A stretch of DNA of 64,000 nt from Cymbomonas tetramitiformis (lineage: Eukaryota; Chlorophyta; Pyramimonadophyceae; Pyramimonadales; Pyramimonadaceae). The notes beneath the pieces were generated by a model. The model was given only the letters and a program-made list of their open reading frames with translations. It made no database searches and was not told the origin of the DNA. The stretch covers positions 1 through 64,000 of the forward strand of contig LGRX02034699.1 of NCBI GenBank assembly GCA_001247695.2, given 5' to 3'. Numbering within the stretch: the first letter of the stretch is position 1; every line of letters begins with the position of its first letter. Position numbers and translations under genes: made by a program. Below, in pieces: positions 7,254 through 37,691 of this stretch.

Positions 7254-7339
7254 CTTCTTCTACGATTTCAGCTGTGCTGTCTGTGATTGCATCTGTGCGA
7301 TGTGAACGGAGGGAGTGTCCATCTGCTGGAACTGTAATG

Positions 7340-17113: not shown

Positions 17114-17372
17114 GTGGAGGATGATTGTGCAATTTGCTTGTCTAGCCTGCTAGGAGAGAGCATGCCATGTGTTGCCACTGCATGTAACCATCATTATCAT
17201 GTAGCTTGCTTTGATGGCTTGGACGAGGAATATCATTTGTCCAGCCTAGTTCAGGGTGCAGCAACCCATGCTGTATTCACCATGAATTACAGGAAACTGG
17301 CGAGATATCCATTGTGTAGATCCTTTCTGGTGGTGTATGAACTCCCGTATGGGGAGGATAGATTCACATATT
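17114..17372 (+). pseudogene. RING-finger-like gene fragment interrupted by a retrotransposon
   Basis: The frame opens MEDDCAICLSSLLGE and carries TACNHHYHVACFDGL, the CxxC...CxHxxHxxC spacing of a RING-H2-type zinc finger (ubiquitin ligase class). The expected last CPxC pair reads YPLC, so one zinc ligand is missing, and no Cys stands close enough to replace it obviously. The chromovirus inserted at 17,373. After removing it and one ATATT copy, the frame ends one codon later (TGG TAG at 31,127). The insertion therefore hit the last two codons and probably replaced only the tail and 3' UTR. Upstream exons are not identified, so this may be the last exon of a larger gene. Confidence 0.5.
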
Positions 17373-18041
17373 TGTGCCCGGAGGCACAGCGTGAGCCGAT
17401 ATGCCTATGCGTCTATATGTGTGTCATCAGGGGTAATCTGGGATTGGCATGATGACAGTGAAATTGGGCTTGAAATCACGATGAGAATGAATACCAGATG
17501 TCCGGGGTATGACACTATGACACTATGACACTATGACAGTATGACACTATGACACTATAGTAGTATGACAGTACTGTGGGGGGTGTCATCGTGGCACTCA
17601 GTCAGACCCTCGAAGAATGGTCAGATTCGCATCGGGGTTGAAAAGACAATGAAATCGAATATCAGATGTCAAGGCTATGACATTATGACAGTATGACGCT
17701 ATGACAGTACAGTAGTATGACAGTACTGTGGGGCAGTCATCGTGTCAGTCTGTCGACATAGCATCTGAATCGAGAATGACGAATCGGAATTAGAAATGAG
17801 ATCGGATCGGGAATTGAACGTTGAGCCGAAGTGTGACATCGGCTCTCGAGTGGTTGACCCTGCAACCTGAGTGACGAGTGAATAAGTGGAGCAAGTGTTG
17901 AGCCTTCAGAACTCGGAACCGAATTATCGTTTGTACCTCAATCTGGCCCTGATCCAGTATATTATAAAATCCGAATTGTGTACCTTTGCACGTTCAATCA
18001 AAAACATATTTCCGAGCATCTGTCGTAGTGCCCCTGGCACA
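17373..18041 (+). repeat. 5' LTR of the chromovirus
   Basis: 669 bp, TG...CA, with terminal short inverted repeats (TGTGCC...GGCACA). It contains two blocks of a 10-bp TATGACACTA/TATGACAGTA repeat (about 17,508-17,572 and 17,676-17,727). These differ in copy number from the 3' LTR. Confidence 0.95.
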
Positions 18042-18058
18042 ATTGGTATCAATAAGCG
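18042..18058 (+). other. Primer-binding site
   Basis: ATTGGTATCAATAAGCG lies directly after the 5' LTR. TGGTATCA matches the complement of the tRNA-iMet 3' end, the usual gypsy primer, although the following bases diverge. Confidence 0.7.
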
Positions 18059-18828
18059 TTACCTGAACACCTCCGCGCGTTCAGCCACGGCCACACTGTA
18101 ACTTCCGTTATACTGAGGGGGGAGAGCCGTACTTTTGGGAAACTCTGCGCAATTTTTTCGTCAGAAATACTATTTTTTTTCAAAGAAGGAACCCGTATTC
18201 TGCTTCCAAAAGTTACCAAATATCAGCATAACGTCTCCTTAACACTGGGGGCCCAACCAGGCTCTCGTTGGCCAAGATTGGTTTTCCGATCTTAAGTTCC
18301 AAGTCTTCCCCAGGCTACAACAAACAACCGTCACAGAGCACCCTAAAGGGTTTCCCCGGTTTATAGTAGCCAGAAAAACCTCATAGCCCACCTCCCAGAG
18401 CCCTAAAAAGGCGAAAAACAGCCCAAAACAGCCCAAAATAGCCGTTTTAGCCAGTTTCCAGCCTACCCCAAAACCTCTCCCAGTAGCCCCCACCACCAAA
18501 AACCCCTTCCTTAGACCCCATAGAACAGCCTAGAAACCCCTGATACCGCCCTCACGGCCATCAGCAGCGGGGAAAGCTCCTCCAAACAGCGCTTTCAGCA
18601 GCTTCTGGACGTTTCTGGCAGTTCTTCAGCACCTTCTGGTATCCTCCAGCAGTACCCTGACTGGAGCATTTTGGGACCTACGGAGCATAAATATCGTCTG
18701 GGATCTTACTGAACCTCTGTATTGGACCTGACACCCTTCCTTTCGTTGCTGCTTGACTCTTGCTCGCGCGCCTAGGCACTCAAAAATCGTGTCGCGGAGC
18801 CCTGGCCAAATTTTGAGTTCGCTGGTGT
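18059..18828 (+). other. Long leader of the chromovirus
   Basis: About 770 bp lie between the PBS and the first ORF, without a convincing gene. It holds a Gly/Ala-poor, CCC/AAAA-rich stretch around 18,300-18,540. It probably contains untranslated leader and packaging sequence (inference). Confidence 0.5.
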
Positions 18829-19134
18829 ATGGCAGTGCCCCCAGACCCAGACAAATACAGAAGAGCGTGGACGAAGAGGAGAACAGCGACTGAACGCCTG
18901 GACAGAGTCACGCTGGCGATCCCACCAGCACACTACGACTACGCGTGGCACCACCAGGGAAACTACTTCTTCCTCTACCCTGCTGACCAAGATTTAACAA
19001 TCTACCCCGCGCTCCCTGGTGCGTTTCCGATAGCTGTAATCGACGGCGTTCCCCCATCTCCACCCGGAAGCCCCGCTCCTTCTCCTCCTCCTTCGCCCCC
19101 AGAGAGTGACATCGACGAGGACGAGTCTGACTAA
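18829..19134 (+). CDS. Small upstream ORF of the chromovirus (101 aa), unknown
   Basis: An ATG at 18,829 opens a 101-codon frame ending TGA-CTAA just before Gag. The N terminus is basic (KYRRAWTKRRTATERLDR). The middle is aromatic-rich (HYDYAWHHQGNYFFLYPADQ). The C terminus is a Pro/Ser run followed by an acidic tail. I recognise no family. Its place between PBS and Gag, and its clean composition, suggest a real accessory protein or a translation-control uORF rather than chance. Confidence 0.5.
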   Translation: MAVPPDPDKYRRAWTKRRTATERLDRVTLAIPPAHYDYAWHHQGNYFFLYPADQDLTIYPALPGAFPIAVIDGVPPSPPGSPAPSPPPSPPESDIDEDESD

Positions 19135-19221
19135 ATAAAAAGGCGCGAGCACTCACTACTTTTGCTCACTTGTGGCTATTGCCACACCCAGTCTGTGAAC
19201 TCAACCAGCTCAGCAGTCAGA

Positions 19222-19674
19222 ATGTCACAGCAGACATCAGAATCCTTTCCCAGCATGGGTGTCAGCGCAGAGCCGTTACACCACCCACTGTTCTCCCCCA
19301 TCACCTTCCCATCTCCCACCGCATACGCTTCCGCTCACCCCCTTCCACATCCAGGCACCACCATGCCCTACACTGCGGTGCCCCGCCCATATACCATGCC
19401 GGATGGCACCCCCGCACAGGCTGTATGGAACGGCGTCAATTGGGTACTGCCCCAATCAGCGGCCCTCGCTGGGGGAGTGTCACCAGTGCCGTTCACACTG
19501 GGAACCCACCACCCCATGGGCTCATATCCCACACCATTCCAACAACAGCTGCAGCAACAGCAGCAGTGGCTCGCGTACCAGCAGCAACAACAGCAGTGGC
19601 TTCAGCAGCAGCCACTGGAACCGATGCAGCAGCAGTTACAGCAGCAGCAGTTCCAGCAACAGCAGTTACAGCAG

Positions 19675-19705
<31 letters not shown>

Positions 19706-22644
19706 CGCAGCCGCAACAACAGCCACAGCAGCCCCATCAGCTGGTACCAGCTACCTCCGCGCTTCATGACTCTGGTGCGGATCTCTCATCGCTGCAGCAC
19801 TTCATCAGTATCGGCGCCGCAGCCCTGCCAGACCCTCTGCAGGTACCCCTTGACAGCGGAGCTCAGCAGAGCGTCTCGGGCGGGGCCCAGCTCTTGGTAC
19901 GCCACCTCCCCGCGGTGGCAGCAGCCTCAGAGACCCGCCGGCGTCGACGTTCCCGAAGGGTATCCTCGGGCCCCGCGACGCACGGCAGGCACATTCCAGG
20001 TCTGAGCCATGCACCTGATCACTCCGACCCCGAGTCCGGTACGGACGTCAGCCGCACCAGCACGGGGACCAGAGGCAGCCGAAGCACGCAGGCACGGGCT
20101 GAGCGCAGGCGGAGGGCCGCCCACAGGTCCGGTTCTGACTCGGACGCGAGCAGCCGGAGCGAGCACATTCGCAGGGAAGTCCTGGCGGCAGTACAGGCCC
20201 TGGACATTTCCGCGGTGCTCTCGAGAGGACTCGCCCTGCCTGGCGCGACGACTTCTGCAGGAGCCTCCCCTCCAGGCGACCCTCAGAGCAGCGCACAGGG
20301 GGCCCTGACGGCGGACCATCCACTCGAGGCGGACGCCGCTGACAGCGTAACCCCCCCAGTGTCTCAGATTGTCGCTGAAACCGCTCCCGCCGAACCTCCC
20401 ACTCAGGGTCGGCCAAACCCCCTCAACATGATGGTGGCTCGCCGGCGGCAGTCGATGGAGACGGTAGTGCACGGCGGTGGCAATCCTGACTCGGAGCTCA
20501 GAGACCCCAGCTCAAGCGACTCACCTCCAGGCCCCCCCAGTGATCCACCTCGAGACCCCCTTGACGACCCCGCGCAAGGACCAGAGCCCTCCTACCCTCA
20601 GTACCCAGAGGTTCGGGCTCTCTTCGTCACCCATGACGGTGGGTCATTGTGGGTACACCAGTCAGCGGGGGTGCGAGGCGCGGCAACCGTCTCCCTGCCA
20701 TGGGATGAACGCCGCCGAGCTGGGGTGCAGGGCGACGCCATCATGTTCAGGATCATGCACCTGCTGGGAGCGCCGCTGACTGCATATGCGCGCATGGGAG
20801 GCCGCCTACACCATGCACCCCTACCACTTACCAACCCTCGTGTGGAGCCCTGGGTCCTCATGGTCGACCGCGAGGTCATGGATATGGCAATGGGGGACCC
20901 AGCCGCAGCCAATGTGCGGTCTACGAGCATGGGGCAGCCAGTGTGGGAGTGGATCCCTGCCACTGCGCGGGAGTCGGAGATGCAGAACTTCGACCAGGAC
21001 GGGCTCGCCGCGTGGTCGGAAGTCAGCAACTCCGATTGGTACCGAAGCATGAGCGTGGTGGCCGCACAACCATCCACTCCCCTGCCCTTCCATACACCTC
21101 TTCCACTCCCCGCTCCACCATCAGCCCCTGCATTACCGCCCACTTCGACTGCAGTCCCCACAAATCCCGCGCCTGCGCTCCTGCCCGCGCATGCCCCGGG
21201 ACCACCACCTCCAGCCCGTTTCCCTCACTCCGCCGCCGCAAACCCCGTTCACTCTGCCGCTGCCGCAAACCCCGTTCACTCTGCCGCTGCTGCGAACCCC
21301 GTACTCTCTCCCAGCGCCACCCCCTTTGTACCAGGCATCGTCCGACTGCCGCAGGGCACTAATCTGCGAGCATCCTCGGACGAGGTCCGCCTGGAGCACA
21401 AGACCAAGGAGATGGTGCTGAAGCTGATCAAGAGTGTGACCAGATTCCCTCGCTCCGCGTCCGACACAAAATCGGCCGACAAGGATGGCCTCCTGACGCA
21501 GTTGGAGCACTACTCCAACATGGTGCGGAAGATATTCCAAGAGGCCATCGTGATCGAGGCGCTGACCACTCCCAGCTGTACGCCATCTGTATCGACGTAC
21601 CAGGCGAGCGTGTCGAGCCTCCTTTGGAGCTTTAAGGAGCACACTCTTCAGGACCAGCAGAAGAAGTTCTTGGAGCGTGCGGCGGGGACCTTCGGGTCTG
21701 ACCAGGCTTGGCACCGGCGCTACGTGGAGCTGGACGTGTTCTTCAGCGATCTGGCGGTGTGCTCCCTAACACAGGCCTACCTGGAGAATGCACACGGAGA
21801 GGCCATTGCACTGAGGCAGGCGACGAACGAGACCGCGGCGGAGTATTTTTCGCGGTTGGAGACCCGCATGGCCTCCGTCAACTTCCTGGCTGGCAGAGTC
21901 CCCAATTGCGTGGAGATGTCCAACCTGTCCATGCTCTCCACGTACCGCCGAGGGTTGAGGTATGCACCCAAGGTGATGCGGCGACTGAGAGCCATCCACC
22001 TGGATGTCTCCAAGCCAGAGGAGTGGGAGAGGAAGGCCGTCGATGACGATATCCCAGGCACCCACAACGCCCTGTTGAAGATACGGGAAGTTGCTGAGGA
22101 GGTGGAGAATGACATTGACACGGAGGCGGCGCAGAGGCGCACTCAAGATCGCCCTCCCCGCACCGTCTCCTTCGCCAACCCCTCACCTCGCACCCCCTTC
22201 TTCAGGCGTCCTCCTTCCTCGAACCGTCCAGCACTCGCCATGCTGGAGAATGGGCCCACCACCACCGCTGCCGCGGCAGTTACCCCATTGCCACCACCAC
22301 CTGGCCTCCCCCGCCCTGACGCTCCGAAGGTCCGCCGGTGTTTCGCCTGCGGCTCCGCGGAGCACATCGTCCGTAACTGCACGGATGAGACCAAGCTCAA
22401 GGAGTGGAGGGCCAATGCACCTGCTCGATTGGCAAATTCTCCTGGGTTCGTGGCCGCCGTCGTCTGGGCCATCGAGCAGCAGGAGGACATCTCCTCGGTG
22501 GATGGCGTCCCAGAGGAGTTCTCCGAGGAGGTCCTGGCACTTGCTACCTGTGAGGACGAGCAGAGCTATCAGACCCTGGCGGCCCTCGCTGGTATCGAGC
22601 TTGTGGAGGGTGACGGTCTTCCCCCGGTTGAGGACGATGAATGA
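19222..22644 (+). CDS. Gag polyprotein of the chromovirus
   Basis: The first ATG in frame is at 19,222, giving 1,140 residues, which is long for a gypsy Gag. An N-terminal Pro/His-rich part leads to a Gln-rich tract (19,543-19,735, mostly CAG/CAA). Ser/Arg-rich and Pro-rich linkers follow. From about 21,370 there is a helical capsid-like region (LEHKTKEMVLKLIKSVTRF, then ANETAAEYFSRLETRMASVN and YRRGLRYAPKVMRRLRA), typical of retrotransposon Gag. A CCHC knuckle CFACGSAEHIVRNC lies at 22,339-22,380. The protein should bind element RNA and form the virus-like particle. The TGA stop (22,642-22,644) is followed by CTG, and Pol continues in the same frame, so Gag-Pol is probably made by readthrough. 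Confidence 0.9.
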
Positions 22645-25600
22645 CTGGCCGGCGACCAGTCCCCGACCCTGCCCTCCGGGGAAGTGAGGTCACACCCTGA
22701 TGATCAGACCCTCTCCGCCCTGGAGAAGCGGTCAGAACCAGTGGAACCCCGACGCGCACGAGGACGCAGAGACCCTTGGGGCCATCGACCTCACCCCCAG
22801 AACGTGGCCTTCACCTCTGGAACCCGCTTGCGACGCACCTACCGCTCAGCTGGTGCCCCATCGCTGCCGAGGGATGACCTGACCAGCCACCCCCTTGCAG
22901 AAAGCGCCTCTTTCGACGAGCCGTCACTACCTCTTGATGACGGCCCTGCTTACACACAGGCAAGGATCGAGGGTCGGAGGGGGCGGCGAGTTCCCCGGCA
23001 CAGACCCCCCATTATGGGCAGCAACCGTGGAGAGCCCCGCGATCTTCGCCCCCAACCACGTGTTGTCCTACCATTACCCAACTATCAGTCCAACCTTGCG
23101 GATCCGCGGAAGAGGCTGACTGCGTGGCACTGGAAGAGAGATCTGTATTCTCTCCCCCTTGAAGTCGCCATGCAAAAGGTTCGCAGAGCTCTGCGCAAAT
23201 CCCCGGAGGCTGCCAAAGACCTGGTGGATAAGATGTGGGAGCGCACCCGTAGCCGCATACGCTCTGGGAGCCGATCGCCGAAGGAGCACGTGAACCGCGC
23301 CAACCAGCTGGCGGAGAGGGTACGCATTGCTCGTGAGCCTCAAGATCGCAGGGAGGGCCATCAGCGCATAGCACTGTGGCACCTCCTCTCACACGACGGT
23401 CACCAGCAGGTCCTCGAGTCCCCTAGCACCAGCTCCTCCGACCTCTACGCGGCTTGGAGAGAGCTGTCGCCCGCCGAGCAGCTGGAGGCGATCGCCACTT
23501 CGAGCCCAGACTCCTTCCCCGGTAGCAGGTTGTGGGAAAAGGAGGGTGCACGAAGAGCAGCAACGAGATCCTCGACCTCTCTCTGCACCCTGGACACTGA
23601 AGTGGGCACGATACCCGGGACAGCGGGAGACGTGGGCTTACCTGGCGCCTGGTGCAGCCTACACGCAGTACACCAGTACAAGATGAGGAAGCTGGGTCCC
23701 AGCCCCTTGGGAGCATTCCCTCCATCATCCTCACTGGTCGAGCCCACGACAGAGACGACATCCTCGCACCATGACAACGCGCCGGCTACCCCGGGAGGAA
23801 ACCTTGAAGGTTCATCCGACTGCGTAGTGGCAGAGGAAACCTCTACATCCAGCTCGCTTTGCTTCACCCAACAGATGACCACCGTCAGAACGCACGAAGC
23901 AGATGAAGCGCCGCCCCGCCTCGACAGCCACCCCATCGCTGAAGACCCCGAGGTTATGGGAGAGGAGCCCTCAGTTGATTCGCTCTGCTACACCCAGCAG
24001 ATGGCAGCAGCTGGGACCCCTGAGGCGAGAACTGATCATCAGAGCTCCCACCAACTCGCCCACAACTTCCCCACTAGCAGCCCTCAGCATGACGAGGATC
24101 CCCTCACCCATAGCAGTCTCACCAACAGTGTCGCTACCCATGTGAGCCCCACAGCAAGCGGCATTACCCACGTGAGCCCCACAGTAAGCGGCACTACTCA
24201 TGTAAGCCCTACCACCAGCGGCACCACCCATGTGAGCCCTACCACCAGCGACACCACCCATGTGAGCCCTACCACCAGCGACACCACTCATGTCAGCCCC
24301 ACCTCGAGCGAAAGCACCTCAGCGGGTACCCTGTTGACGGCGAGTGTGGACAACCTCGTCAGCCACCCGACTGAAGATGTTGACTTGCTGGATGAGGAGT
24401 TCTACGCCGCGTGTAGGCAGACGTTGGAGGAATGCCGCGAGGCCTCGGACAACCTCCTCCCCAACCTTAAGTGCAAAAGCATACGCACGGATGGGGGAGT
24501 TCAGTGGAAGACCGACATTGAGGGTACCCTCGCAGCGGCACATGACGAAGAAGGACCGCTGCTGCTGGTGTTCTATGCAACCCTCAGAGGGCATACGGTC
24601 AAGGTGCTGATCGACTCGGGGGCCTCTGACAACTTCATCTCGGAGCAGAGCGCCAAGCGATGTGGCCTCACGACACGAGCTGGCTCCGAGATGCGTGTCA
24701 CCTTGGCGGATGGATCTGTGAAGATCACTGGCGCCACTGCGTACGCCAAGTTTAACACGCACACCACCACGGGCACCTATACAGAGAACGCCCTTGCCCT
24801 TCGAATCCTACCACTGGGTATACAGGTGGATGTTATTCTTGGCGGAAGGTGGTTGCGCAGTCACTCTCCTGTTACTCTGGGCTATGAAGGGAATGGTTCC
24901 GTCTCCTTCCTCAGGAAGTCCCGCAGTGGTAAGATTGGAGATAGCGTCACCATCACAGGCTGTTCTCCTGGGAAAGCATCTGGAGACAAGTCTCCGAAGG
25001 GCACGGCCTGTGCGGGATTGGTGGATGAGGTGTTCCTGACCCCCGCCCAGTTGAAGAAGTACCCGGTGTACGCGGAGACGCAGAAGCTGCGCGGCAATGA
25101 CGACCCGGGGATACAACCCGCCTGGCTCATGATGGCCGAGAAGTCCCCCGATGATACTACTTCTGCCTTTGCAGCCACGGCTATCGACTCTGAGAACGCC
25201 GAACCCGCTACGGATACTGAAGACGCAGAAGTGGGCCCTGAGTGGACCCTCAAGTTTCAGGACTTCTGGGGCGAGGAGTACAAGAAGGAGATGACGACTG
25301 CTCTACCGAACATTGATGGACTCAGACATGACCCCCAAGATGAGGCCAACATCAACCTGGACCCTGAGCTGAGCAAGAAGGGGCCGCCCTGCCAGCGCAT
25401 CTACAAGAAGTCTGCAGAGGAACTCCGCCAACTTCGAGAACGCGTCGAGACCTTGATGTCCAAGGGCTACATCCGACCCTCGTCCAGTCCTTATGCAGCT
25501 CCCTGCCTGATGGTCCCCAAACCAGGGAACCCCAAGGAGCTGCGACTGGTGATCGACTACCGGCTTCTCAACCGCCAGACGGTTAAGGACAAGTACCCTC

Positions 25601-28284
25601 TCCCAGACATCCAGATGATGTTCGACGAGATGCAGGGTGCGAAGTTCGACGCGGTGGATGGTTTCTGGCAAGTTCCGATGGCTCCAGGGGATGTCGAGAA
25701 GACCGCCTTCACCACCCAGATGGGGTCATATGAGTGGTTGGTCATGCCGCAGGGGCTGCAGAATTCGCCGTCTCAGTACCAGCGACGGATGCAGCGGGCT
25801 TTGGGCCATCTCCCATTTGTCCGAATCTTCATCGATGACGTGGTCGTCTTCAGTAACACCGCTGCAGAGCACTACGAGCACGTCAAGCAGTTGCTCCTGA
25901 CGTGCAGGGAGAAGGGTGTCTTCCTCAAGAGATCCAAGTGCCAACTGTTGAAGAAATCCTTGCGGTTCCTTGGTCACTGCATCTCCGCGGATGGCTGCAG
26001 ACCCCAACACGACAAGGTGGCTGCAGTGAGGGACTGGCCCGAGCTGGAGACGGTTACCCACGTCAGGCAGTTCTTGGGTCTGGCGGGGTATTACCGCAGA
26101 TTCATTCACTGTTTCTCCGAGATCGCCCAGCCCCTCACCCGGTTGACCAAGTCGGACGTACCTTGGGAATGGGGCCCCATGCAGCAGTGGGCCTTCGAGG
26201 AGCTGAAGAAGGCCCTCACATCGGCACCAGTGCTCGCCTTGCCCAACATTAAGGGCGCCGCAGACGGCACAGCACCTTTCGTGGTGCAGACGGATGCCAG
26301 CGGCATCGCCCTTGGGGGAGTACTGATGCAAGACAATGGAGATGGTCTTGGGCTGCGCGTGATAGCATACGAGAGCCGCCAATTCTCGGCCGCCGAACAG
26401 AATTACCACACCGGCGAGCGTGAACTAGGTGCCCTGCATCATTGTACCACCGTCACCTGGCGGCATTACCTCATCTTCACCAACTTCCGCATCCAGGGTG
26501 ATCACCGCCCCCTTGAATGGCTGATGGAACCTGGCAGAGAGCTCAGCCGCAGACAGGCACGCTGGTACATGGATCTGGTGGAGGTGGGAGTCCCGCGAAT
26601 GGAGTACATCAAGGGGGCGCTACTGCTGGTACCAGACGCCCTGTCCAGAAGACCCGACTTCAAGGACAAGGACGTTCGCGAAGGGTTGAAGGAAGCAGGA
26701 GTGATCGACCCCACCTCAGACCTGCCGAAAGACCCTCTGGCAACGCTGGAGTCCGAATGCTTCTCCAGCTCACCACCCGCGGCTCATCCCCACTGGGCCC
26801 AGACGGTTGATTGTTGGCTCTCAGCAGTGGAAACCCTCTCCGTGGCAGAGCAGGCCATGAGAATGGGGGAGACCATCGCTCTCGTTAATCCGAAGCTCTA
26901 TAAGGGAATGAAGGAGGATCACCTTGACTTCGACATGCCTGACTGGCCTGAAGCTGATAGCGCGAAGCCGACAGAAGCTCCACATGGACCCCCTGACCGA
27001 GCTCCACCTCAGATAAGGATAACGAAGAGTATGTCACGCGCTGGGAAAGCCTCTACGACCCCAGCGCCCCCACAGTTGGTGTCACCGAAGACGCGAACGC
27101 CTACATCACGAGCTGACGCATCGGCGGCGCCCACTGAGAAGGTGCCAGCGAGCTCACCACCCCCGCAGAAGGCGCCCCAGCAGTCAGCTCCATCCCCGGT
27201 CCTTTACCCACAGAAACGACAGGCTTCCCTCCCAGAGGACTCGCAGAATTGGCGTGTCCGAGCAGAGTACTCCTCGAAGTACGCCGAGAAGTTTGGACCC
27301 TTCGATGTGGACGCCTGTTGTGACTTTGGCGGCCGCAACAGACAGGCGGATAGATTCTGGACAGACTGCCTTTCAGAGAAATGGAGGGGCCTTCGGATTT
27401 GGTGTAACCCTCCATATAACTCCAAACACGTTACTGTCGAGGCGATTCTGAACAAGTACATCACAGAATGGAAGGCGGACCCAGAAAACACCTCAGCAGT
27501 CTTCGTCCTACCAGATCACCAGTCCAAGCTCCCCGCGTGGCGCAAACTATTCAGAAAGGCCAATATGCAGATCGTGGAGGTCGTCCCTACTCACGATGAT
27601 AAGGGCGAACCTAATCAGTTCTTCGAGAACCCAGATGGGAAGGCCTTCGACCTTCGCTGGCCTGTTCTGATAGTGCACGCCCCCCCCGCCAAACCACAGC
27701 CAGCACGCGTGAGACATCCGCGAACGGCTCCCGCTGTGATAAGGACGGGTGAGGCAGCAGCCTTCAGGGACACAATCTCCCAGCAGTCGGACTCGAAGTT
27801 CCTGCGTGCGTTGAAAGCGGAGTACACCCGAGAGGGATCACTCCGTTCGCTGCGAGAGAAGGTGAAGGCGGCGCCACACCAATGCCTACAGGACTTCAGG
27901 CTGGTGGGTGAGGTAGTTTGGAGAACCGCAGCAGGGAGATATCAGTTGGTGCTGGGGGAGGATTCTCCACTTCGGGAGGTAGTGATTCGTCATGCTCACG
28001 AGTCATTGTCCTCAGGTCACACTGGGCGAGACAAGACTCTGGAAAGAGTGCTGCGACGCTTTTATTGGCGTGGTGCTGCAGAGGATGTGGGCACCTGGGT
28101 TGCATCCTGCGCGGTGTGCCAATCAGTGAGACCGCGGGGAACTTACCCGGATGGGTTGCTAAACCCTCACAGCATCCCGAACAGATCATGGCAAGATGTC
28201 GCGGTGGACTTCGTCACCGGCCTGCCAGTATCAGAAAGGGGTAATGACGCTTTCGTGGCGACGTGGCCTTCACGTGCAAGCTGA
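22645..28284 (+). CDS. Pol: protease, RT, RNase H, inserted NPPY methyltransferase-like domain, integrase N part
   Basis: It is in frame with Gag after the TGA. A ~600-residue Ser/Thr/Pro-rich linker includes a THVSPT repeat (24,136-24,300). Numbering from 22,684, the protease DSGASDNFIS lies near residue 642. RT holds LRLVIDYRLLNRQ, MPQGLQNSPSQYQ and the catalytic FIDD near 1,048. RNase H has QTDASGIALGG near 1,200. Next comes an extra domain, about 1,520-1,670, with FDVDACCDFGGRNRQADRF and WCNPPYNSKH (NPPY near 1,574), then VFVLPDHQSKLPAWRKLF. This pattern matches phage/Dam-type N6-adenine methyltransferases. Integrase follows with HAHESLSSGH...CAVC (HHCC) near 1,769 and the first catalytic Asp in VAVDFVTGLP. 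The frame is lost near 28,265 by one missing base, inside the integrase core. Confidence 0.92.
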   Translation: MAGDQSPTLPSGEVRSHPDDQTLSALEKRSEPVEPRRARGRRDPWGHRPHPQNVAFTSGTRLRRTYRSAGAPSLPRDDLTSHPLAESASFDEPSLPLDDGPAYTQARIEGRRGRRVPRHRPPIMGSNRGEPRDLRPQPRVVLPLPNYQSNLADPRKRLTAWHWKRDLYSLPLEVAMQKVRRALRKSPEAAKDLVDKMWERTRSRIRSGSRSPKEHVNRANQLAERVRIAREPQDRREGHQRIALWHLLSHDGHQQVLESPSTSSSDLYAAWRELSPAEQLEAIATSSPDSFPGSRLWEKEGARRAATRSSTSLCTLDTEVGTIPGTAGDVGLPGAWCSLHAVHQYKMRKLGPSPLGAFPPSSSLVEPTTETTSSHHDNAPATPGGNLEGSSDCVVAEETSTSSSLCFTQQMTTVRTHEADEAPPRLDSHPIAEDPEVMGEEPSVDSLCYTQQMAAAGTPEARTDHQSSHQLAHNFPTSSPQHDEDPLTHSSLTNSVATHVSPTASGITHVSPTVSGTTHVSPTTSGTTHVSPTTSDTTHVSPTTSDTTHVSPTSSESTSAGTLLTASVDNLVSHPTEDVDLLDEEFYAACRQTLEECREASDNLLPNLKCKSIRTDGGVQWKTDIEGTLAAAHDEEGPLLLVFYATLRGHTVKVLIDSGASDNFISEQSAKRCGLTTRAGSEMRVTLADGSVKITGATAYAKFNTHTTTGTYTENALALRILPLGIQVDVILGGRWLRSHSPVTLGYEGNGSVSFLRKSRSGKIGDSVTITGCSPGKASGDKSPKGTACAGLVDEVFLTPAQLKKYPVYAETQKLRGNDDPGIQPAWLMMAEKSPDDTTSAFAATAIDSENAEPATDTEDAEVGPEWTLKFQDFWGEEYKKEMTTALPNIDGLRHDPQDEANINLDPELSKKGPPCQRIYKKSAEELRQLRERVETLMSKGYIRPSSSPYAAPCLMVPKPGNPKELRLVIDYRLLNRQTVKDKYPLPDIQMMFDEMQGAKFDAVDGFWQVPMAPGDVEKTAFTTQMGSYEWLVMPQGLQNSPSQYQRRMQRALGHLPFVRIFIDDVVVFSNTAAEHYEHVKQLLLTCREKGVFLKRSKCQLLKKSLRFLGHCISADGCRPQHDKVAAVRDWPELETVTHVRQFLGLAGYYRRFIHCFSEIAQPLTRLTKSDVPWEWGPMQQWAFEELKKALTSAPVLALPNIKGAADGTAPFVVQTDASGIALGGVLMQDNGDGLGLRVIAYESRQFSAAEQNYHTGERELGALHHCTTVTWRHYLIFTNFRIQGDHRPLEWLMEPGRELSRRQARWYMDLVEVGVPRMEYIKGALLLVPDALSRRPDFKDKDVREGLKEAGVIDPTSDLPKDPLATLESECFSSSPPAAHPHWAQTVDCWLSAVETLSVAEQAMRMGETIALVNPKLYKGMKEDHLDFDMPDWPEADSAKPTEAPHGPPDRAPPQIRITKSMSRAGKASTTPAPPQLVSPKTRTPTSRADASAAPTEKVPASSPPPQKAPQQSAPSPVLYPQKRQASLPEDSQNWRVRAEYSSKYAEKFGPFDVDACCDFGGRNRQADRFWTDCLSEKWRGLRIWCNPPYNSKHVTVEAILNKYITEWKADPENTSAVFVLPDHQSKLPAWRKLFRKANMQIVEVVPTHDDKGEPNQFFENPDGKAFDLRWPVLIVHAPPAKPQPARVRHPRTAPAVIRTGEAAAFRDTISQQSDSKFLRALKAEYTREGSLRSLREKVKAAPHQCLQDFRLVGEVVWRTAAGRYQLVLGEDSPLREVVIRHAHESLSSGHTGRDKTLERVLRRFYWRGAAEDVGTWVASCAVCQSVRPRGTYPDGLLNPHSIPNRSWQDVAVDFVTGLPVSERGNDAFVATWPSRAS
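27262..27700 (+). other. Adenine-methyltransferase-like domain inside Pol
   Basis: The region between RNase H and integrase contains FDVDACCDFGGRNRQADRF (SAM-binding-side motif), then the class-defining NPPY at about 27,406-27,417, then a hydrophobic strand SAVFVLPD and a WRKLF helix. The order and spacing follow phage Dam-type enzymes, in which the D-rich strand precedes NPPY by about 35 residues. All key residues seem present, so activity is plausible. The target base is inferred only from NPPY. Confidence 0.75.
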
Positions 28285-30254
28285 CGAAGATGGTCCACGT
28301 TATACCGATGAACTTCGGCGACAGCTCTGCAGCTGTGGTGGCCAGAATCTACTTTGACTCGGTGTGGCGCTTGCATGGCACACCTATGAAATTTGTCTCT
28401 GACCGTGACCCGCGGTTTCAAGATGCTTTCTGGCAGGAACTCATGAGACTGATGGGTGTGAAAGTGGCTCGCACCACGCCGTACAACCCTCGGTCTGACG
28501 GCCAAGCGGAACACAGCAACAGAGTTATTGAGGATATGCTCAGGTCCTTCGTGGACGCCAATGTGGAGGACTGGGACTTGTTCACCACTAACGTGGAGTT
28601 CGCGATCAATGACTCCAGAAGTGGATCTACTGGCTTCACGCCATTTGAGCTAGTGTTTGGGTTCTCGCCGCTGTCGCAGTTGGACCTTTTCCTGGAGGCC
28701 GCGCAGTCCACCGCTGGACGACGAACAGGGGGAGTAGGCACCGCACACGAGGTGGCCGCGAAATTTTCGTCGCAGCTGCGGGACGCCAGGCAGCGGTTGG
28801 AGCTGGCTCAACAGCGACAGCGCGAGCAGTTTGATCGCAGACACGGACAGCGGGAGTATGCTGTTGGAGATCTGGTCTGAATAGAAGCGAAACACCTTAC
28901 AGAGAAGGTGATGGATCGCTCCATCTGCAGGAAGTTGACCAAGCGCTGGCATGGACCGGTCCCTGTGACCGAACGCTTCTTCAGTGATGTGCAGATGACC
29001 ATGCCAGAGGCTGACAGGGGAGCTCCAGTAGCCTACCGTCTACGCCTCCCTCCACACTGGCGGATACACGACGTGTTCGCTCAACACCGCCTCAAACCGT
29101 ACACCAGCGGTCAAGATGCTTTCGCCGCACGAGATCGCCTAGCAGTACCGGAAGAGGTGGTAGTGGACGGTCAGAAGGAAGCACACGTTGAGCGTATTCT
29201 TGCACGTCGGGTGCGGTCTGTTCGAGGAAAAGAGGTGGAAGAGTGGAAGGTTCGCTGGACTGGCTACTCCAAAGCGCACGACCAATGGAGGACGCGTGAC
29301 AAACTCGAACGCGGAGGTCCACTTCAACAGCTTCGTGAATTCGAGCAAGCGAGACTGCACATGGAAGCACAAGTTCGCGACGAAGCCACTCGGCGACGCG
29401 AGCAACGTGGCCGTCACTCTGCTCAAGCTGGAATGACACTGGCTCACCTCATCACTAACCCCTGCGATGAACTGGACCAGCTCGAACAGATGGAACATGA
29501 TATCCCTCTGCCGTGGGAACGTCAAGAGCGTACGGAAGATGGGTCGTTGGCACTGGTGACAGAGCTGCTGGCAATACAGACGGAAGTAACCCGCATGCCC
29601 AGAATTCTTGTACTTTTCAGCGGCACTGGCTCAGTAGAGAGAGAATTCCTGAATTGCTTCCCCTCCGCTTCAGTGGTGACCCTCGACTCCGAACACATCT
29701 GGCATCCCACTCATGTGCATGACATCCTACAGTGGGACTACAAACAATACCCGCCTGGATTCTTCGATGTCGTTTGGGCAAGTCCCCCCTGTAGGCAGTA
29801 CAGCCAAGCGCGCACCACTGGAGGACCCCCTGATCTTCCCCAGGCTGACAAAATCGTACGGCGAGCATTGCAGATCATTGACTACTTGGAGCCAAAACAT
29901 TGGTTCATGGAGAACCCCAGAGGTCGCTTCCCCAACGCGCTGCGGCTTCGCCCCATGATGCGTCAACTTCCTCCCCCGCTGGTGTGTACCTACTGCATGT
30001 ACGGCACGCAGTACATGAAGCCCACCTGCATATGGACGAACTCAGCACCACCCACGCCCCTGCTACGCTGTACTGCTTCGACACCGTGTGCGTGCAGATG
30101 GGCAACCGGTGCTCATCCAGAGACTGCTCAGCTGGGACCTCATCCGCAGCAGACTGGAGCGGGCCAATCCGCGAGCGTATATCCCGTGCCAGCGCCCCTG
30201 CTGCGACAACTTTTCCGACATTTACGCCTCCGCAAGACTGAAGACCCGCTTTAG
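28263..30254 (+). CDS. Pol C part: integrase core, chromodomain, C5-methyltransferase-like domain (one nonsense codon)
   Basis: It continues Pol in the next frame. The integrase core gives FVSDRDPRFQ (second Asp) and NPRSDGQAEHSNRVIEDML (Glu). A TGA at 28,878-28,880 replaces the Trp expected in GDLVW, a position usual in gypsy integrase tails. The frame then continues with the GPY-like region. The chromodomain spans about 29,152-29,346 (HVERILARRVRS, EWKVRWTGYSKAHDQW). From 29,600 a methyltransferase-like domain reads ILVLFSGTGSVEREF (SAM motif I), an LD acidic end of strand 2, DVVWASPPCRQYSQA (motif IV with the catalytic-type Cys), and HWFMENPRG (motif VI). YCMYGTQYMKPTCIWTN follows. These are C5-cytosine methyltransferase hallmarks. 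The single frameshift and stop make this copy inactive. Confidence 0.88.
29597..30100 (+). other. C5-cytosine-methyltransferase-like domain downstream of the chromodomain
   Basis: Motif I (LFSGTGSVEREF), motif IV (SPPCRQYSQA) and motif VI (MENPRG) occur in the canonical order within about 110 residues, and all three key elements are intact. The tail after about 30,100 becomes low in similarity and Pro/Arg-rich, so a target-recognition region is either short or degraded. Confidence 0.75.
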
Positions 30255-30427
30255 ATTCCAAGCGGCACCCTCCTTCGTGAAAGTGGTGCCCTGGTAGCGG
30301 CAGGCAAGTTGTGCTCGAAGAGGAACCAGAGAACCTAAGAACTGGAAACAGAAAGGAACCAGAAAACCTAAGAACTGGAACTTAGATGGGTACCTTAGCG
30401 GAGTGATCCCAGGAGGTAGACCACTCC

Positions 30428-30443
30428 TAAGGGGGGGGAGAGT
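30428..30443 (+). other. Polypurine tract
   Basis: AAGGGGGGGGAGAG followed by TT lies directly before the 3' LTR start at 30,444. This is the priming site for plus-strand synthesis. Confidence 0.85.
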
Positions 30444-31121
30444 TGTGCCCGGAGGCACAGCGTGAGCCGATATGCCTATGCGTCTATATGTGTGTCATCG
30501 GGGGTAATCTGGGATTGGCACGATGACAGTGAAATTGGGCTTGAAATCACGATGAGAATGAATACCAGATGTCCGGGGTATGACACTATGACACTATGAC
30601 ACTATGACAGTATGACACTATAGTAGTATGACAGTACTGTGGGGGGTGTCATCGTGGCACTCAGTCAGACCCTCGAAGAATGGTCAGATTCGCATCGGGG
30701 TTGAAAAGACAATGAAATCGAATATCAGATGTCGGGACAGTATGACAGTATGACACTATGACAGTATGACAGTATGACAGTACAGTAGTATGACAGTACT
30801 GTGGGGCAGTCATCGTGTCAGTCTGTCGACATAACATCTGAATCGAGAATGACGAATCGGAATTAGAAATGAGATCGGATCGGGAATTGAACGTTGAGCC
30901 GAAGTGTGACATCGGCTCTCGAGTGGTTGACCCTGCAACCTGAGTGACGAGTGAATAAGTGGAGCACTTGAGAAGTGTTTAGCCTTCAGAACTCGGAACC
31001 GAATTATCGTTTGTACCTCAATCTGGCCCTGATCCAGTATATTATAAAATCCGAATTGTATACCTTTGCACGTTCAATCAAAAACATATTTCCGAGCATC
31101 TGTCGTAGTGCCCCTGGCACA
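30444..31121 (+). repeat. 3' LTR of the chromovirus
   Basis: 678 bp, nearly identical to the 5' LTR except for copy-number changes in the TATGACA(C/G)TA blocks, a short change near 30,970 (GCACTTGAGAAGTG) and a few substitutions. Confidence 0.95.
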
Positions 31122-31189
31122 ATATTTGTGGTAGACATAGGGGTATAATTATGATGAGGAGAAGTTTGCATGATTGTTGTAGTTTCCTA

Positions 31190-31510: not shown

Positions 31511-31728
31511 GAAAAAATAATTAAGGTGACCCGATTGATGAAAGGTTACATGCTTATGACAGGCTGAAATTAAACAATATTGATTAGGGAGGGTGTTGTG
31601 ATTTTGACTCAGATTGTGGCTCCGTATGATTATTACATTATTATTACGTGCATTATCAGAGTGGGGGCGAGAAGATGTTACTGCTGTAACACATTATTAT
31701 CCATGTTTGTATCAAGACAAATAACGTT

Positions 31729-32406
31729 ATGTCAGTGTTTCTTCAACCTCAAGTAAAATGTGAGATGGATGGTGGTATGAGGGGGCAGGCTCCCTTGGGA
31801 TTGGCATCGACGGGAATGCCGGGATTCGACATTGAGGCATACGTGGACTCGGTACGGTTCCAGAAATCCATGCAAGAGGAGACCAAGGGGGTCTCCAACT
31901 GGTTGAAAGCTCACCGATTGAGCAGCGAGCTGTTGGAGTGGTGCCTGACCCCGGGGAAGGCGGTGCCGGAGATACCGAAGCTGATGCGGAAGGTGGCAGC
32001 TGCTTTTGGCCTGCCGGGAACCAGTTCTAGGGAGCCGGAGACTCCTCAGTCCTTGTATTCCCTTGCCACTCGCATTGAGAGGGAGCTGGCAGGCGGTACT
32101 AGGGATGCGTCCTTGCCGGACAACCACATTGCCCTGTTTGCACATCAACAAATCAGAGCTACGGTTCCAGAGTGCGAGAAGGATGATGCGCACGAGTCAG
32201 AACTGCAGATGTTCATCAAGACTCAATCCAAGAAGGCCTACTCGTTATCGGGAGCCACTAGGCAAATTACGACCAAACCTGGAGCTCCTGCAGACTGCAA
32301 TGCCAAGTGCCCGAAGTGCCAGGGGTCACATATGCTGCGGGACTGTAAGTCTCCTTATGCGTTGAACACGGATGGATCCATCAATGTGACTGTACAAACG
32401 GAATAA
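31729..32406 (+). pseudogene. Gag-like protein of the DIRS element
   Basis: The 225-codon frame starts with ATG. A helical middle (FQKSMQEETKGVSNWLKAHR) is followed by a knuckle CPKCQGSHMLRDC, spaced C-x2-C-x3-H-x4-C, one residue shorter than the usual CCHC. It ends with TAA at 32,406. The position ahead of RNase H and RT supports a nucleocapsid role (inference). It is intact as an ORF even though the element is not. Confidence 0.65.
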
Positions 32407-32619
32407 GCATGCCAAGGTGAATAACCAAAACCAGTTGGCTCAGTTGCCACCACCCCCTCAGAGGGAGCCTGCCTGAAGTCGTCGAGGTTACCAGAATTCT
32501 GGGCTGTATAATTATGCAAATATTGTAGCATTAATTTGAGAGCGGGCCAGGATGCCTGTCTTACCATGTACCAACAGATTCCGGGTTGTACTATTAAGTA
32601 GAAATGCATGGTTTCATGT

Positions 32620-33020
32620 GGACTGAATTTACTTGATATGTTGATTTTGCATTCTGTTATTTTGCTCTACGCTAGATTTCAAAAATTTCAATTTTGGCTG
32701 ATTTTGCTCTACGTTAGATTTCAGATTTCAGTCTTCGGGATGCTTGATTTCGGATTTGGATTTGTTTTTTAGGCTCTACGTCAGATTTCCAAAATTTCAA
32801 CTTTGGCTGAGTTTGCTCTACGTCAGTTTCAGATTTCAGTTCTTGGAATGCTGATTTCAGATTTACAAACCAATTTCAGCATTTTAACATCGTCACTTCG
32901 CTCAGCGTTAGTTTCAGATTTCAATTTTGATTAATTTGATATATGGTGGATTTCAGATTTCAATTTTGGAATGCTGGATTTCAGAATGGCAATTGTTATT
33001 AGCTTCTGCCGATGGGCAGT
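32620..33020. repeat. Degenerate TTTGCTCTACGTCAGATTTC repeat
   Basis: Irregular units of GCTCTACG(T/C)(T/C)AGATTTCAGATTTCA recur about every 60-70 bp between the Gag-like and RNase H-like frames. Confidence 0.75.
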
Positions 33021-33312
33021 TCGACTAAGTGTTTTGGTTTAGGGATGCATATCTCAAATTGGAGTGATTCGCTATTTGCAGGCAATTAATGCCCATTAAC
33101 CTGCCTGCACCTGGTGACCGTCCGCCATAGAAGCCTCCCTTTTAACATGGGGATGCTGGACGGTTAGAATACTGACCGCAACGGGTGGGTTACTCTACAC
33201 GAGTAACACACCGGAAGCGACCAGGCTCGAAAATCGTACATCCCTTTCCACAATATTGGGACCCGGTAGAGACCGGGGTGCGATTTTCGAGGAGCAATTC
33301 TTCTAAAAAAGA

Positions 33313-34026
33313 GTGCTCTGGTGCGATTTTGTTGTCTCGAACAGGGACACGAGCCGCACTCAATCAATCCCACTGGAGGGATTGTTTTTCTTCGATGGTG
33401 CATGCCGCTTCAACGCGTCGCCGGATTTGAGGCAAGCCTCGTTCGGGGTGGCATTCTGCTCAGAACAAGGTCAACCGTGGACTCGGGACTACGGGCGCCT
33501 TGGATCCAAGACAAACAACTATGCAGAATTTGTGGGAGCTGTGATTGCAATCCAGAGAGCGATAGAATGGAACATGACCACAGCAACAATTATTGGGGAC
33601 TCGGAGCTAGTGGTGTCGGCCTTTTCGGGCTCCCGTAACGTTATCGCAAAAGACTTGGGGAAACTACTTATCATTGGGAAGGCGCACATGGCCTTACGCC
33701 CGGATTGTGTTTTCAATTTCAAACATGTGGCACAGGACCATAATAAACTGGCTGACAGCCTAGCCAACTTCGCGCTGGATTCTGGCCTGCCGGCAACTAC
33801 AAGTGTGAGAGACCCGCTCGCGTTTATTACCGTGGCGGTTGAAGGCTTTGACAGTGCTCGGGAGGTTATGGAGAGGCGGCAGTCTTTGGCGCCACGTGAG
33901 ACCCAGGGGCAAGATAGACTGGCCCCTTCAGTGATGGATGCCCTGAGTGGGAGTTTGGTCCCGGACCCCCTTTCCGCCCCAACTAGCAAGGGACCCGGGG
34001 GAGTTCCGGGTGGGAACTATCCATGA
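33313..34026 (+). pseudogene. RNase H-like ORF upstream of the RT
   Basis: The ORF contains LFFFDGACRFNAS (first Asp), TNNYAEFVGAVIAIQRAIEW (Glu), TIIGDSELVVSAF (Asp) and HVAQDHNKLADSLANFALD (last Asp), all four RNase H catalytic positions in the order of RNase HI of the compact, archaeal-like type. After about residue 165 the sequence becomes Pro/Ser-rich linker. It lies before the RT, whereas DIRS elements normally carry RNase H only after RT. It could be a captured domain or part of one long polyprotein with a frame break near 34,030. The start at 33,313 is not an ATG-supported certainty. Confidence 0.75.
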
Positions 34027-34113
34027 GTGTACTCAGGTTTGGGCACAGTGGCAACAGCATCGGAGATGGGATCGTAAGTCAAAAAATGGGCAAAGAATGG
34101 TGGAGTCTCCATC

Positions 34114-35046
34114 TTGGATTTCTTCCAGCATTTTTCAGGCAGCTATGAAGGGGCTCGTTTTGACTCACAGACGCCCCCGAGAATGCATTTCGAAAATCAT
34201 GCAATGCCAGATCATCTAATCCCCTGGATCTCTGAAAAAATACGGGATGAGCTCAAATGGGGAGCAATAAGAATTTGGAGCAAGGAGGGGCAGTGCTCTC
34301 CCCCGCATCTGGTTATGCCTGTGGGGGTGGAGCCAGCCAAACCAAGAAAGATCAATGATGCAAGATTCCTTAACCTTTGGTGTACGGATATACCGTCCAC
34401 TTACGAGTCGGTGACGATGCTTCCACAAATCTTGGAGAAGGGTGACCCGGCATTTATTATGGACCAAGCGTACGGATTCTTCCATGTGAGGCTTACAGAG
34501 GAATCGCAACAGTACATGGGTTACCTATGGGAGGGCTTATATTACGTTTATACAGTTCTCAATTTTGGATGGAAGCTAGCACCGGTCATTTATAGCGCCT
34601 TTGCGGGGGAGTTCGCGGGATTCATCCGGCGGCTGTGGATCCCTTATTTATACTATATCGATGATAATGCCGGTGGGCCGGGCCCAGTGGGAGCCTCGGC
34701 TCTTACGAAACAAAATAGGACCGCAATCTCGGCGTTCGTCGTCTCGTCATGCATGACTGCGGCGGGATATTGTATTCATCTCGAGAAGACGGAGTTTGTT
34801 CCGTCCATGTCCATCACCTGGCTTGGTATTGGTGTTGACCTTGCAAAGCAGGAATTTTTCATCCCGCAGAAAAAATGGGGAAAGTTCTTGAGCCTGGCAA
34901 CGGACCTGCGAGCTTCGTCAAAAATTTCGGCCAGGGACCTTGAGAGGGTGGCGGGGAAGCTAATTTCTATGTCAATTGCAGCCCCAGGCATCCTTATTGC
35001 ATGCAGAAAGCTGTATGATTTTCTGGCAAAAGGCACGATTTTGTAG
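34114..35046 (+). pseudogene. DIRS-type reverse transcriptase
   Basis: The ORF contains KPRKINDARFLNLWC, AFIMDQAYGFFHVRL, LNFGWKLAPVIYSAF and the catalytic YYIDDNAGG. This is the DIRS/Ngaro-type RT signature rather than gypsy. The C-terminal thumb is followed by LERVAGKLISMSIAAPG. The TAG at 35,046 ends the frame, while the neighbouring frame (34,976 onward) continues the protein, so a one-base break lies near 35,000-35,045. Confidence 0.82.
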
Positions 35047-35715
35047 GAAAAGTTTTGACCTGGACAGTAAGCAGATGAGAAATTTCAAACTTTACTTGAG
35101 CCAACTCTTCCAGCCGTCGTTGATTAAAATGTCCGCATTCAGAAAGCAGGTCCACTGCTCGATACTTATGGATACAACAAACGAGGGTTTTACGAAAGTC
35201 ATGGCAGCATCAATCGGAGCGGGGGAATTTCAGGATGAGATTTCGTGTTATCGTGACTTGAGAATCTGCTCGTCGGTAGACCAATCAATCTTGATTTCAG
35301 AACCCATGTTCGAAATCCCAGTGAATCTGGTCCTGCAACGCTGGGACATAATCTTGGATGAAAATATCTGGGATTCGTTGAGGGTCCTCTCGTCTAACCT
35401 GGGTACCAAGGCATGCAAAGACCTGGCAAAACGGCTCTATAGATTTGTCGCGGATAACAACTTGGAGCTGAAGCTGGTTTCCTTTGCAAGGGGACCGGAT
35501 GGGGCGATTGTAGTTCCTGATGAGGAGTCTCATTATTTACTGATGCCACGGTTCTCTCCTCTATTGAACATGATGTTTGGAAAGCACAACATTGACTGCT
35601 TCGCGACAGCGGCTAACGTTCGGGGATGCCCCAAAATGCGATTTTGCTCAAGACTGCCGGAGAAAGAAGCTTGTGGCACTAATGTCTTTGCCTACTATCC
35701 GTTGGCGGGATTAAA
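34976..35715 (+). pseudogene. DIRS RNase H tail and start of the NPPF domain
   Basis: The frame holds VHCSILMDTTNEGF where RNase H begins, a stretch LSSNLGTKACKDLAKRLYRF, and HNIDCFATAANVRGC with KEACGTNVFAYYPL. These are positions typical of the DIRS region between RNase H and the methyltransferase domain. It is cut at 35,715 by the minus-strand LINE insertion. The true continuation is at 37,273. Confidence 0.7.
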
Positions 35716-35949
35716 TAATAATAATAGTATACGTTGTAACATTTACGCTGAGAATAATGACAATGTCATAAGTCCGCTGTAATCCTGCAAGCAGGCAACT
35801 GAAGAACAGAGGGAGCTGGAGTCATCCTCATAGCGCGCCCCGAAAGGCTCATCTAGGTCGTGTCAACCTAGGAAACCGCGGCAAGACAAAACTACGCAGA
35901 GCGCTAAAGGGTCGTGCCGGCGGAGAAGCAGCAAAGGAGGTGGAGGTGG

Positions 35950-36115
35950 AGCAGTGCATCCATAATGGAAATTAAAGGGGGGAGGTGAGGCGGGGAGGGG
36001 TGGTGGTGGGGGTGCGGAAGGCGGGGTGGAGGGAGCGTGTGGGGGTGGAGGGGCGATCTATGGTAGGAAGGGGCGGGGAGGGGGGACCCCTCCTACCAAT
36101 AAAAGAAAGGGGGGG
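35950..36115 (+). other. G-rich tract in the LINE 3' region
   Basis: About 165 bp are dominated by GGGG runs on the plus strand (GGGGAGGGGTGGTGGTGGGG and similar), with more than four G-tracts at short spacing. The matching 3' region of the plus-strand LINE (51,000-51,110) is C-rich, as expected for the opposite orientation. Confidence 0.7.
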
Positions 36116-36203
36116 TGCTTATCAATTATTCATCTGAGTGAAGAGAGGGGGGAAGAGGTGAGAAATCATTCAAGAAGTTAAAAAGATAGACATGTTTGCT
36201 CTT

Positions 36204-37218: not shown

Positions 37219-37262
37219 CGGGTTGCAAAACAGTTCACATCCATTCTCGTTTAGTCCACGGT

Positions 37263-37555
37263 CGGGATTAAACTGTTATGCTAACCCGCCTTTTGCTTTA
37301 ATGGGGCCGTTCCTAATGTATTTAAAAGAAGAGAAAGCTTCAGCCTCAGTGGTTGCCCCGCAATGGGATGGTTTCTCCCCGGATGGATTCTGGTGGACTG
37401 TGTATAATAAACTGTGCAAACAAAAGTTCAGAATCGCTGAAGCAGGGGAAGTCTGTTTCCAACAGCTTAGAAGTGAAAAATGGGTAGAGGCAGGCCCGCT
37501 CCCGTGGGCGGTCTGGATTTTTAGATTCGATTTCTCTCAAGAGTATTTCGTATAG
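37263..37555 (+). pseudogene. NPPF domain of the DIRS element, continuation
   Basis: The region reads LNCYANPPFALMGPFLMYLKE, then ASASVVAPQWDGFSPDGFWW. The NPPF motif, the VAP strand and a PxW segment are the known C-terminal methyltransferase-like block of DIRS polyproteins. It ends at TAG 37,555. Confidence 0.78.
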
Positions 37556-37691
37556 CCAGGAACAAAAATCATGTAATTTATTTAAAAGCCTTCCGGCGGA
37601 AACCGCTTGTCTTGCAAAAAAAGAAAATGTTGTGGTCACCGGTAACCTTCGGGGGGCAATGTGAGGTTGATAGGGTATTGGCAGGAGCCTG

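Follow-up and report, generated by a model that had tools for sequence, protein, structure and literature searches.

Can a single retrotransposon carry enzymes for modifying both adenine and cytosine and, if so, what might it use them for? This question is raised by a Ty3/gypsy-type long terminal repeat (LTR) element that occupies, with both borders exact, positions 17373-31121 of a 64,000-nt stretch of DNA from Cymbomonas tetramitiformis, a green alga (Chlorophyta, Pyramimonadophyceae); the whole stretch is called the window here. Methyltransferases carried by retrotransposons form a small class, and what they do is considered an open question (PMC5890265; the articles cited by PMC number were available as partial texts, and what is said of them concerns those parts). 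Our best reading, to which we give a probability of about 0.5, is that the element belongs to a Cymbomonas chromovirus family whose Pol bears two methylases at fixed places, with which it would mark its own complementary DNA (cDNA) and/or the site of integration.

The adenine-type (Dam) domain is found in the interval between RNase H and integrase, where an earlier note, made from the sequence alone, had located an NPPY block with an upstream FDVDACCD strand. It matches PF05869 above the cut-off (E 3.9e-8; 33.6 bits against 28.1), and its predicted structure is a Rossmann-like amino-methyltransferase fold with NPPY as the catalytic motif and FDVDACCD upstream. As its score against NCBIfam TIGR01712 is far under the cut-off (21.5 against 97.05), the domain is not the phage equivalog. 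The catalytic columns are invariant in all 15 of the rows chosen for alignment.

The cytosine-C5 (C5) domain follows the chromodomain and was correctly recognised in that note from LFSGTGSVEREF, SPPC and MENPRG. PF00145 is matched above the cut-off (E 5.2e-6; 26.6 bits against 22), the match being confined to positions 41-112 of the 324-position profile, and the score against NCBIfam TIGR00675 is 15.9 against 100.65. In the predicted structure (pLDDT 90.2), the catalytic Cys (PC) and Glu (EN) motifs lie within a C5-methyltransferase fold, and their columns are invariant in 49 of 49 chosen rows. The location proposed for this domain, 29,597-30,100, was right, but its extent was not, as the model and the structural alignment (which extends to model residues 222-227) reach about 30,239, giving some 215 residues against the 324 positions of the profile. 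Profiles and structures therefore place both motif blocks inside methyltransferase folds. Although the best fold match of the C5 domain is DNMT3A, by sequence the PDB gives no DNMT3 chain at E <= 1; the lowest values belong to three DNMT1-named chains (0.64-0.66), and phrog_757 gives 1.5e-17.

Neither region is a chance feature, given the database proteins that match at E <= 1e-3 (61 with the C5 query and 16 with the Dam query). All matches with a named organism come from C. tetramitiformis (9 of 61, with up to 97% identity, and 9 of 16, with up to 93%), the remainder being, for both queries, metagenome or EukProt entries. On this basis, too, the window most probably comes from this alga or a very close relative. 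PF05869 is borne by 15 of the 16 Dam-query matches, and the two domains recur together in other members of the family: CNPPY is followed by SPPC and ENP within one protein in seven of the 16 (P0064, P0065, P0066, P0067, P0069, P0070 and P0074), and P0072, in which 67% of the Dam query is matched, has the C5 motifs without CNPPY. P0069 unites reverse transcriptase, RNase H, Dam, integrase, SH3, chromodomain and C5, several of these scoring just below their Pfam cut-offs (chromodomain, 20.9 against 25.1 bits; SH3, 29.7 against 30; integrase core, 28.4 against 32.6; C5, 20.1 against 22). The Dam domain also stands between RNase H and integrase in P0079 and, as far as can be read from their sequences, in P0078 and P0080. 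Among the C5-query matches, SPxC and ENP are each present, anywhere in the protein, in 58 of 61, and a Pfam chromodomain in 16 of 61. A plasmid search with P0069 gave six records, and among the five matches listed the parts hit were reverse transcriptase/integrase or cytosine methylase.

Are these domains maintained? Ten in-frame pieces of the window were aligned separately, at the protein level (and thus not as dN/dS), with nine relatives. With P0069, identity is 79% in the reverse transcriptase, 83% in RNase H, 63% in the zinc part of the integrase and 74% in the SH3-chromodomain piece; the Dam domain retains 55% over 99% of its length and the C5 domain 68% over 98%, whereas the linker between chromodomain and C5 is 37% identical over 83%, and the one between RNase H and Dam aligns along only 43% of its length. 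Similar values were obtained with P0067 (Dam, 58%; RNase H-Dam linker, 37% over 49%; C5, 62% over 66%), with the part present of P0070 (C5, 72%; chromodomain-C5 linker, 34%) and with P0074 and P0075 (Dam, 45-48%; RNase H-Dam linker, 28-29%). The Dam domains of P0079 and P0080 are more distant (33-38% identity over roughly 60%), and neither protein has a C5 domain that aligns. As the domains were kept while the neighbouring linkers diverged, the comparison would imply that purifying selection acts on the protein.

As for their origin, the C5 domain is, judging by sequence, one of the compact virus-type methylases. A tblastn search with it found 12 phage records at 28-34% identity, and in IMG/VR its alignment led to at least 483 stretches encoding relatives, among at least 600 matched stretches; no Dam relative was found there with the Dam alignment among 122 stretches, and no relative with either single protein as query. 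The four phage C5 proteins that were translated all have ENPR and KPTD; YCxYG or YCSYG occurs in three. As a control, the two flanking C5 methylases of Bacillus phage BM15 (pieces cut at the locus ends) score 167 and 205 bits against PF00145 and the compact middle one 33.8, a difference that sets the compact methylases apart in kind. In the C5 tree, which contains no DNMT1 or DNMT3 row and whose deepest fork is weak, a branch supported at 99/96 holds 17 rows and no phage row. These rows are P0022, P0023 and 15 termed retroelement rows, one of which (P0026) was so termed by eye from its N-terminal part, where Pfam finds nothing; the other 14 group at 94/94. The compact virus-type C5 suggests gene flow between DNA viruses and retrotransposons, presumably from the former to the latter.

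The window's own Dam domain matched no phage; with that of P0070, phage Dam genes were matched weakly (E 2e-4 to 1e-2, among 25 listed of 35 records). In a tree of 22 rows, the Gypsy-element Dams, together with that of P0082, are separated from three phage Dams at 100/99, with long branches. P0082 is a Cymbomonas protein with reverse transcriptase, a weak RNase H and Dam, called DIRS-type by its layout only, with no recombinase seen. As the gypsyA rows fall on one side only at 54/45 and long branches meet in this tree, it does not establish descent from a DIRS Dam. A distinct Gypsy polyprotein of 2058 residues from a metagenome (P0081) has its Dam ahead of the reverse transcriptase and a PHD finger, likewise a chromatin-reading domain, ahead of the integrase. 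From this other placement, Dam would seem to have entered Gypsy elements more than once.

How might the two enzymes be used? The Pol products of gypsy elements accompany the cDNA, and chromodomains can direct integration toward marked chromatin. In our best reading, both methylases would travel with the integration complex. The Dam domain, made next to RNase H and integrase, would be first to encounter the cDNA and would mark it at adenines when, with RNase H finished, it is freshly double-stranded. The C5 domain, which closes the integrase-SH3-chromodomain series, would be held at the cDNA ends and the target chromatin, and would mark cytosines on the ends of the element and/or on the chosen chromatin site. 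Such marks could make the new copy resemble host or modified DNA, so that it escapes nucleases or the detection of unmarked DNA, or they could set a chromatin state. The earlier note had proposed that the element might mark its cDNA, evade silencing or target marked chromatin, and we favour nuclease protection or escape from unmarked-DNA detection as the likely purpose. A more specific version, that the integration complex is a two-base writer placing N6-methyladenine on the cDNA and 5-methylcytosine on its ends or the target site, the latter by a virus-type C5 enzyme fused to integrase and chromodomain, with epigenetic marks both read and written by one mobile protein, is put forward only tentatively. 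Were both marks to occur on new cDNA or at fresh insertions, transposons would write their own chromatin; the many database proteins of this family offer natural comparisons.

Several observations weigh against cDNA or target-site marking. When only Foldseek is considered, a single PDB entry matches the Dam model at E <= 0.001 (8.8e-4), diverse methyltransferases coming next, and its top structural match is an mRNA-cap enzyme, so that RNA could be the Dam substrate. The C5 domain has scant space for a target-recognition domain and lacks GNSV, a usual motif of C5 methyltransferases, which makes its specificity, and even DNA as its substrate, doubtful. SymbioLINE-Dnmt produced no de novo DNA methylation in yeast (PMC5890265), and a retroelement-borne methylase thus need not act on DNA. 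One or both enzymes might then work on RNA, with Dam methylating an internal or cap-next adenosine of the element transcript and steering its translation, packaging or stability. We consider this unlikely, since the Dam sequence matches families of DNA enzymes (PF05869, DNA N-6-adenine-methyltransferase; phrog_111, DNA methyltransferase), structural Z differences of 1-2 cannot separate substrates and no RNA-specific sign was seen in the C5 domain. The relatives also supply difficulties. SPPC was not seen in eight of the 16 Dam-query matches, most of which stop before that point; in public gene models, several of them from Cymbomonas (P0009, P0012, P0014, P0065 and P0066 are examples), the frame changes directly behind YCMY and the C5 domain loses its end, apparently owing to a mispredicted intron, the unspliced frame being conserved in relatives; and P0079 and P0080 run beyond the chromodomain into a common tail without SPPC or ENP. 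This tail, agreeing in position and look, is possibly a dead C5 domain. However, as a single sequence it scored 13.3 (50 shuffles reached up to 23.4) and as a two-row profile 23.6 (the best of 60 column shuffles reached 23.0), so that a degenerate C5 is not established. Dam-bearing proteins with such a tail would fit domains captured by chance and kept, with catalysis lost, as structural or nucleic-acid-binding parts, an explanation that we find quite improbable in view of the invariant catalytic columns, the persistence of SPxC and ENP among the C5-query matches and the conservation of the domains relative to the linkers.

The position of the C5 domain beside the chromodomain would also suit self-silencing, in which the enzyme methylates integrated copies and the element thereby limits the damage to its host; slowed retrotransposition, to the benefit of the host, has been raised as a possibility for retrotransposon DNMTs (PMC5890265). 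This leaves the adenine enzyme unexplained, and such elements may be present in very high copy number (scaffolds of >10,000x coverage, PMC5741210, presumably of the same family), making self-silencing a rather poor candidate. Finally, some gene models appear chimeric (P0076, for instance, when its sequence is read), and an assembly or gene-model fusion of an LTR element with phage-like methylase genes might be suspected. Such a fusion is extremely improbable and already contradicted: a Dam domain upstream and a C5 domain downstream of the integrase recur across several contigs, including those of the metagenomic P0064 (94% identity) and P0070 (60%), and in the raw window DNA each of the two domains occupies an open frame, within an element delimited by clean LTRs and a target duplication. 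Marking of the cDNA and/or the integration site remains, in our opinion, the best account of the two domains.

The element itself (Table 1) has direct LTRs with a short duplication, the order protease-reverse transcriptase-RNase H-integrase and a chromodomain behind the integrase, as chromoviruses do. The LTRs, polypurine tract and target-site duplication described in the earlier note were confirmed by the LTR alignment (10 mismatches in 661 aligned bases, plus 4 gap events), a G-rich tract and ATATT on both sides. The primer binding site TGGTATCA is presumably of the initiator tRNA-Met type. The zinc knuckle of the gag-like open reading frame (ORF) is weak (22336-22383; 17.2 bits against the Pfam cut-off of 20.8). 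A single in-frame TGA (22642-22644, in the context TGA CTG), absent from the earlier note, parts gag from pol, and represents either stop-codon readthrough to produce Gag-Pol or a mutation in this copy. The pol ORF (22645-28284) holds the protease, reverse transcriptase, RNase H, Dam domain and integrase zinc domain, and the last ORF (28881-30254) the SH3-like domain, chromodomain and C5 methylase, in that order. The integrase core is below the cut-off both here and in P0069, and the zinc domain is far above it in both. The copy is broken, since the frameshift and the stop that had been placed at 28,265 and 28,878 were found as a frame break near 28.26 kb and an in-frame TGA at 28878-28880. 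Copies open across this region do exist, as P0064 is a single open protein from Dam to C5.

Table 1. Features of the Ty3/gypsy-type element and its borders (positions in the window).
Feature	Position	Strand	Remarks
Target-site duplication, left	17368..17372	.	ATATT
5' LTR	17373..18041	+	669 bp, TGTGCC...GGCACA
Putative primer binding site	18044..18051	+	TGGTATCA; two bases past 5' LTR
gag-like ORF	19135..22644	+	1169 aa, Gln-rich; TGA end, same frame as pol
Aspartyl protease	24577..24846	+	PF13650
Reverse transcriptase	25513..25977	+	PF00078, E 1.6e-27
RNase H	26269..26580	+	PF17917, E 6.2e-27; pol residues 1209-1312
Dam-type N6-adenine methyltransferase domain	27238..27702	+	FDVDACCD...WCNPPY; PF05869, phrog_111, model m788601650aef, structural alignment to N6-adenine methyltransferases
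Integrase zinc-binding domain	27964..28137	+	PF17921; pol residues 1774-1831
Integrase core	28248..28880	+	Next frame; PF00665 21.9 bits, under cut-off 32.6; closes at in-frame TGA 28878-28880
SH3-like domain	29022-29102	+	PF24626; precedes chromodomain
Chromodomain	29184..29348	+	PF00385, E 2.6e-7, 30.9 bits against 25.1; last-ORF residues 102-156
Compact cytosine-C5 methyltransferase domain	29592..30239	+	LFSGTGSVE, ASPPC, MENPRG, KPTCIWT, YPVPAPLL; PF00145, phrog_757 E 1.5e-17, model ma286052f9c43 pLDDT 90.2, C5 methyltransferase fold match
Polypurine tract	30429..30442	+	G-rich; sequence ahead of 3' LTR
3' LTR	30444..31121	+	678 bp, TGTGCC...GGCACA
Target-site duplication, right	31122..31126	.	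ATATT

The surroundings contain other mobile sequences. Beside the right end of the element, positions 31690-37557 hold the gag-like frame and the RNase H and reverse transcriptase frames of a second retroelement, probably a decayed one of DIRS type; a Dam-like fragment with ANPPF, near 37265-37366, shares 47.5% identity with the P0082 Dam across 40 columns (E 2e-4). Another, disrupted Ty3/gypsy-like element (protease, reverse transcriptase, partial RNase H) lies on the minus strand at 5487-8766, where neither methylase domain was matched by tblastn. At 57819-62075, a long ORF combines numerous leucine-rich repeats with a weakly matched TIR-like domain (23.5 bits; cut-off, 28) and is a possible NLR-like host gene. 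In 2-kb steps, the G+C content of the window ranges from 40 to 64%, and the 51.4% reported for the Cymbomonas assembly (PMC10675990) falls inside this range.

With regard to known systems, the pairing of both methylases in one retroelement appears to be undescribed, each type being known singly. In agreement with the earlier note, which knew of no such layout, no description of an adenine and a cytosine methylase in one element was found in the open-licence literature, among the matches listed and the parts of these articles available. Its statement that single cytosine methyltransferases occur in some retrotransposons and Dam domains in DIRS elements was borne out (PMC5890265, PMC3783388). 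DNMT3 has also been reported in LTR Copia and DIRS elements (PMC12344493), and accessory domains are treated in PMC6338049; the available parts of the Ginger and TnpB/Fanzor papers (PMC2836005, PMC3627910) do not describe a retrotransposon Dam. In Cymbomonas, for which numerous endogenous viral elements have been reported (PMC10675990), the scaffolds of >10,000x coverage show matches, on the same or on separate scaffolds, to a cytosine DNA methyltransferase as well as to a chromodomain and RNase H (PMC5741210). The Chlamyvir-type chromoviruses are likewise Ty3/Gypsy elements of Cymbomonas with a chromodomain-containing pol (PMC10675990); methyltransferases and methylation are absent from the available main text of that article.

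DIRS elements resemble the window element in having a PF05869 Dam in pol alongside reverse transcriptase and RNase H, but they have a tyrosine recombinase and neither aspartic protease nor DDE integrase (PMC3783388), both of which are present here together with direct LTRs, a chromodomain and a second methylase. Classification of the window element as a DIRS was rejected because it has direct LTRs, where DIRS repeats are inverted or split, and integrase domains. Among the compact phage C5 methylases of phrog_757, Haloferax tailed virus 1 gp60 (218 aa) and Bacillus phage BM15 gp128 (222 aa) share with the window C5 domain ASPxC, ENPRG, YCxYG...KPTDxW and a partial PF00145 match; each is, however, a phage protein that stands alone, with 32.8% and 29.5% identity, respectively, to a domain that is fused here behind integrase and chromodomain. 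A further parallel comes from PMC5890265, which describes KnitGypsy-Dnmt3, SymbioDIRS-Dnmt3 and SymbioLINE-Dnmt and notes that Dam is known from DIRS. KnitGypsy-Dnmt3, from Klebsormidium nitens, likewise belongs to the LTR Gypsy elements, and its Pol ORF includes a cytosine-C5 methyltransferase that is reported to be under purifying selection. Nevertheless, it has one enzyme, of Dnmt3 type, with no Dam domain mentioned in the available text, whereas the window element has two, the cytosine one resembling compact viral methylases.

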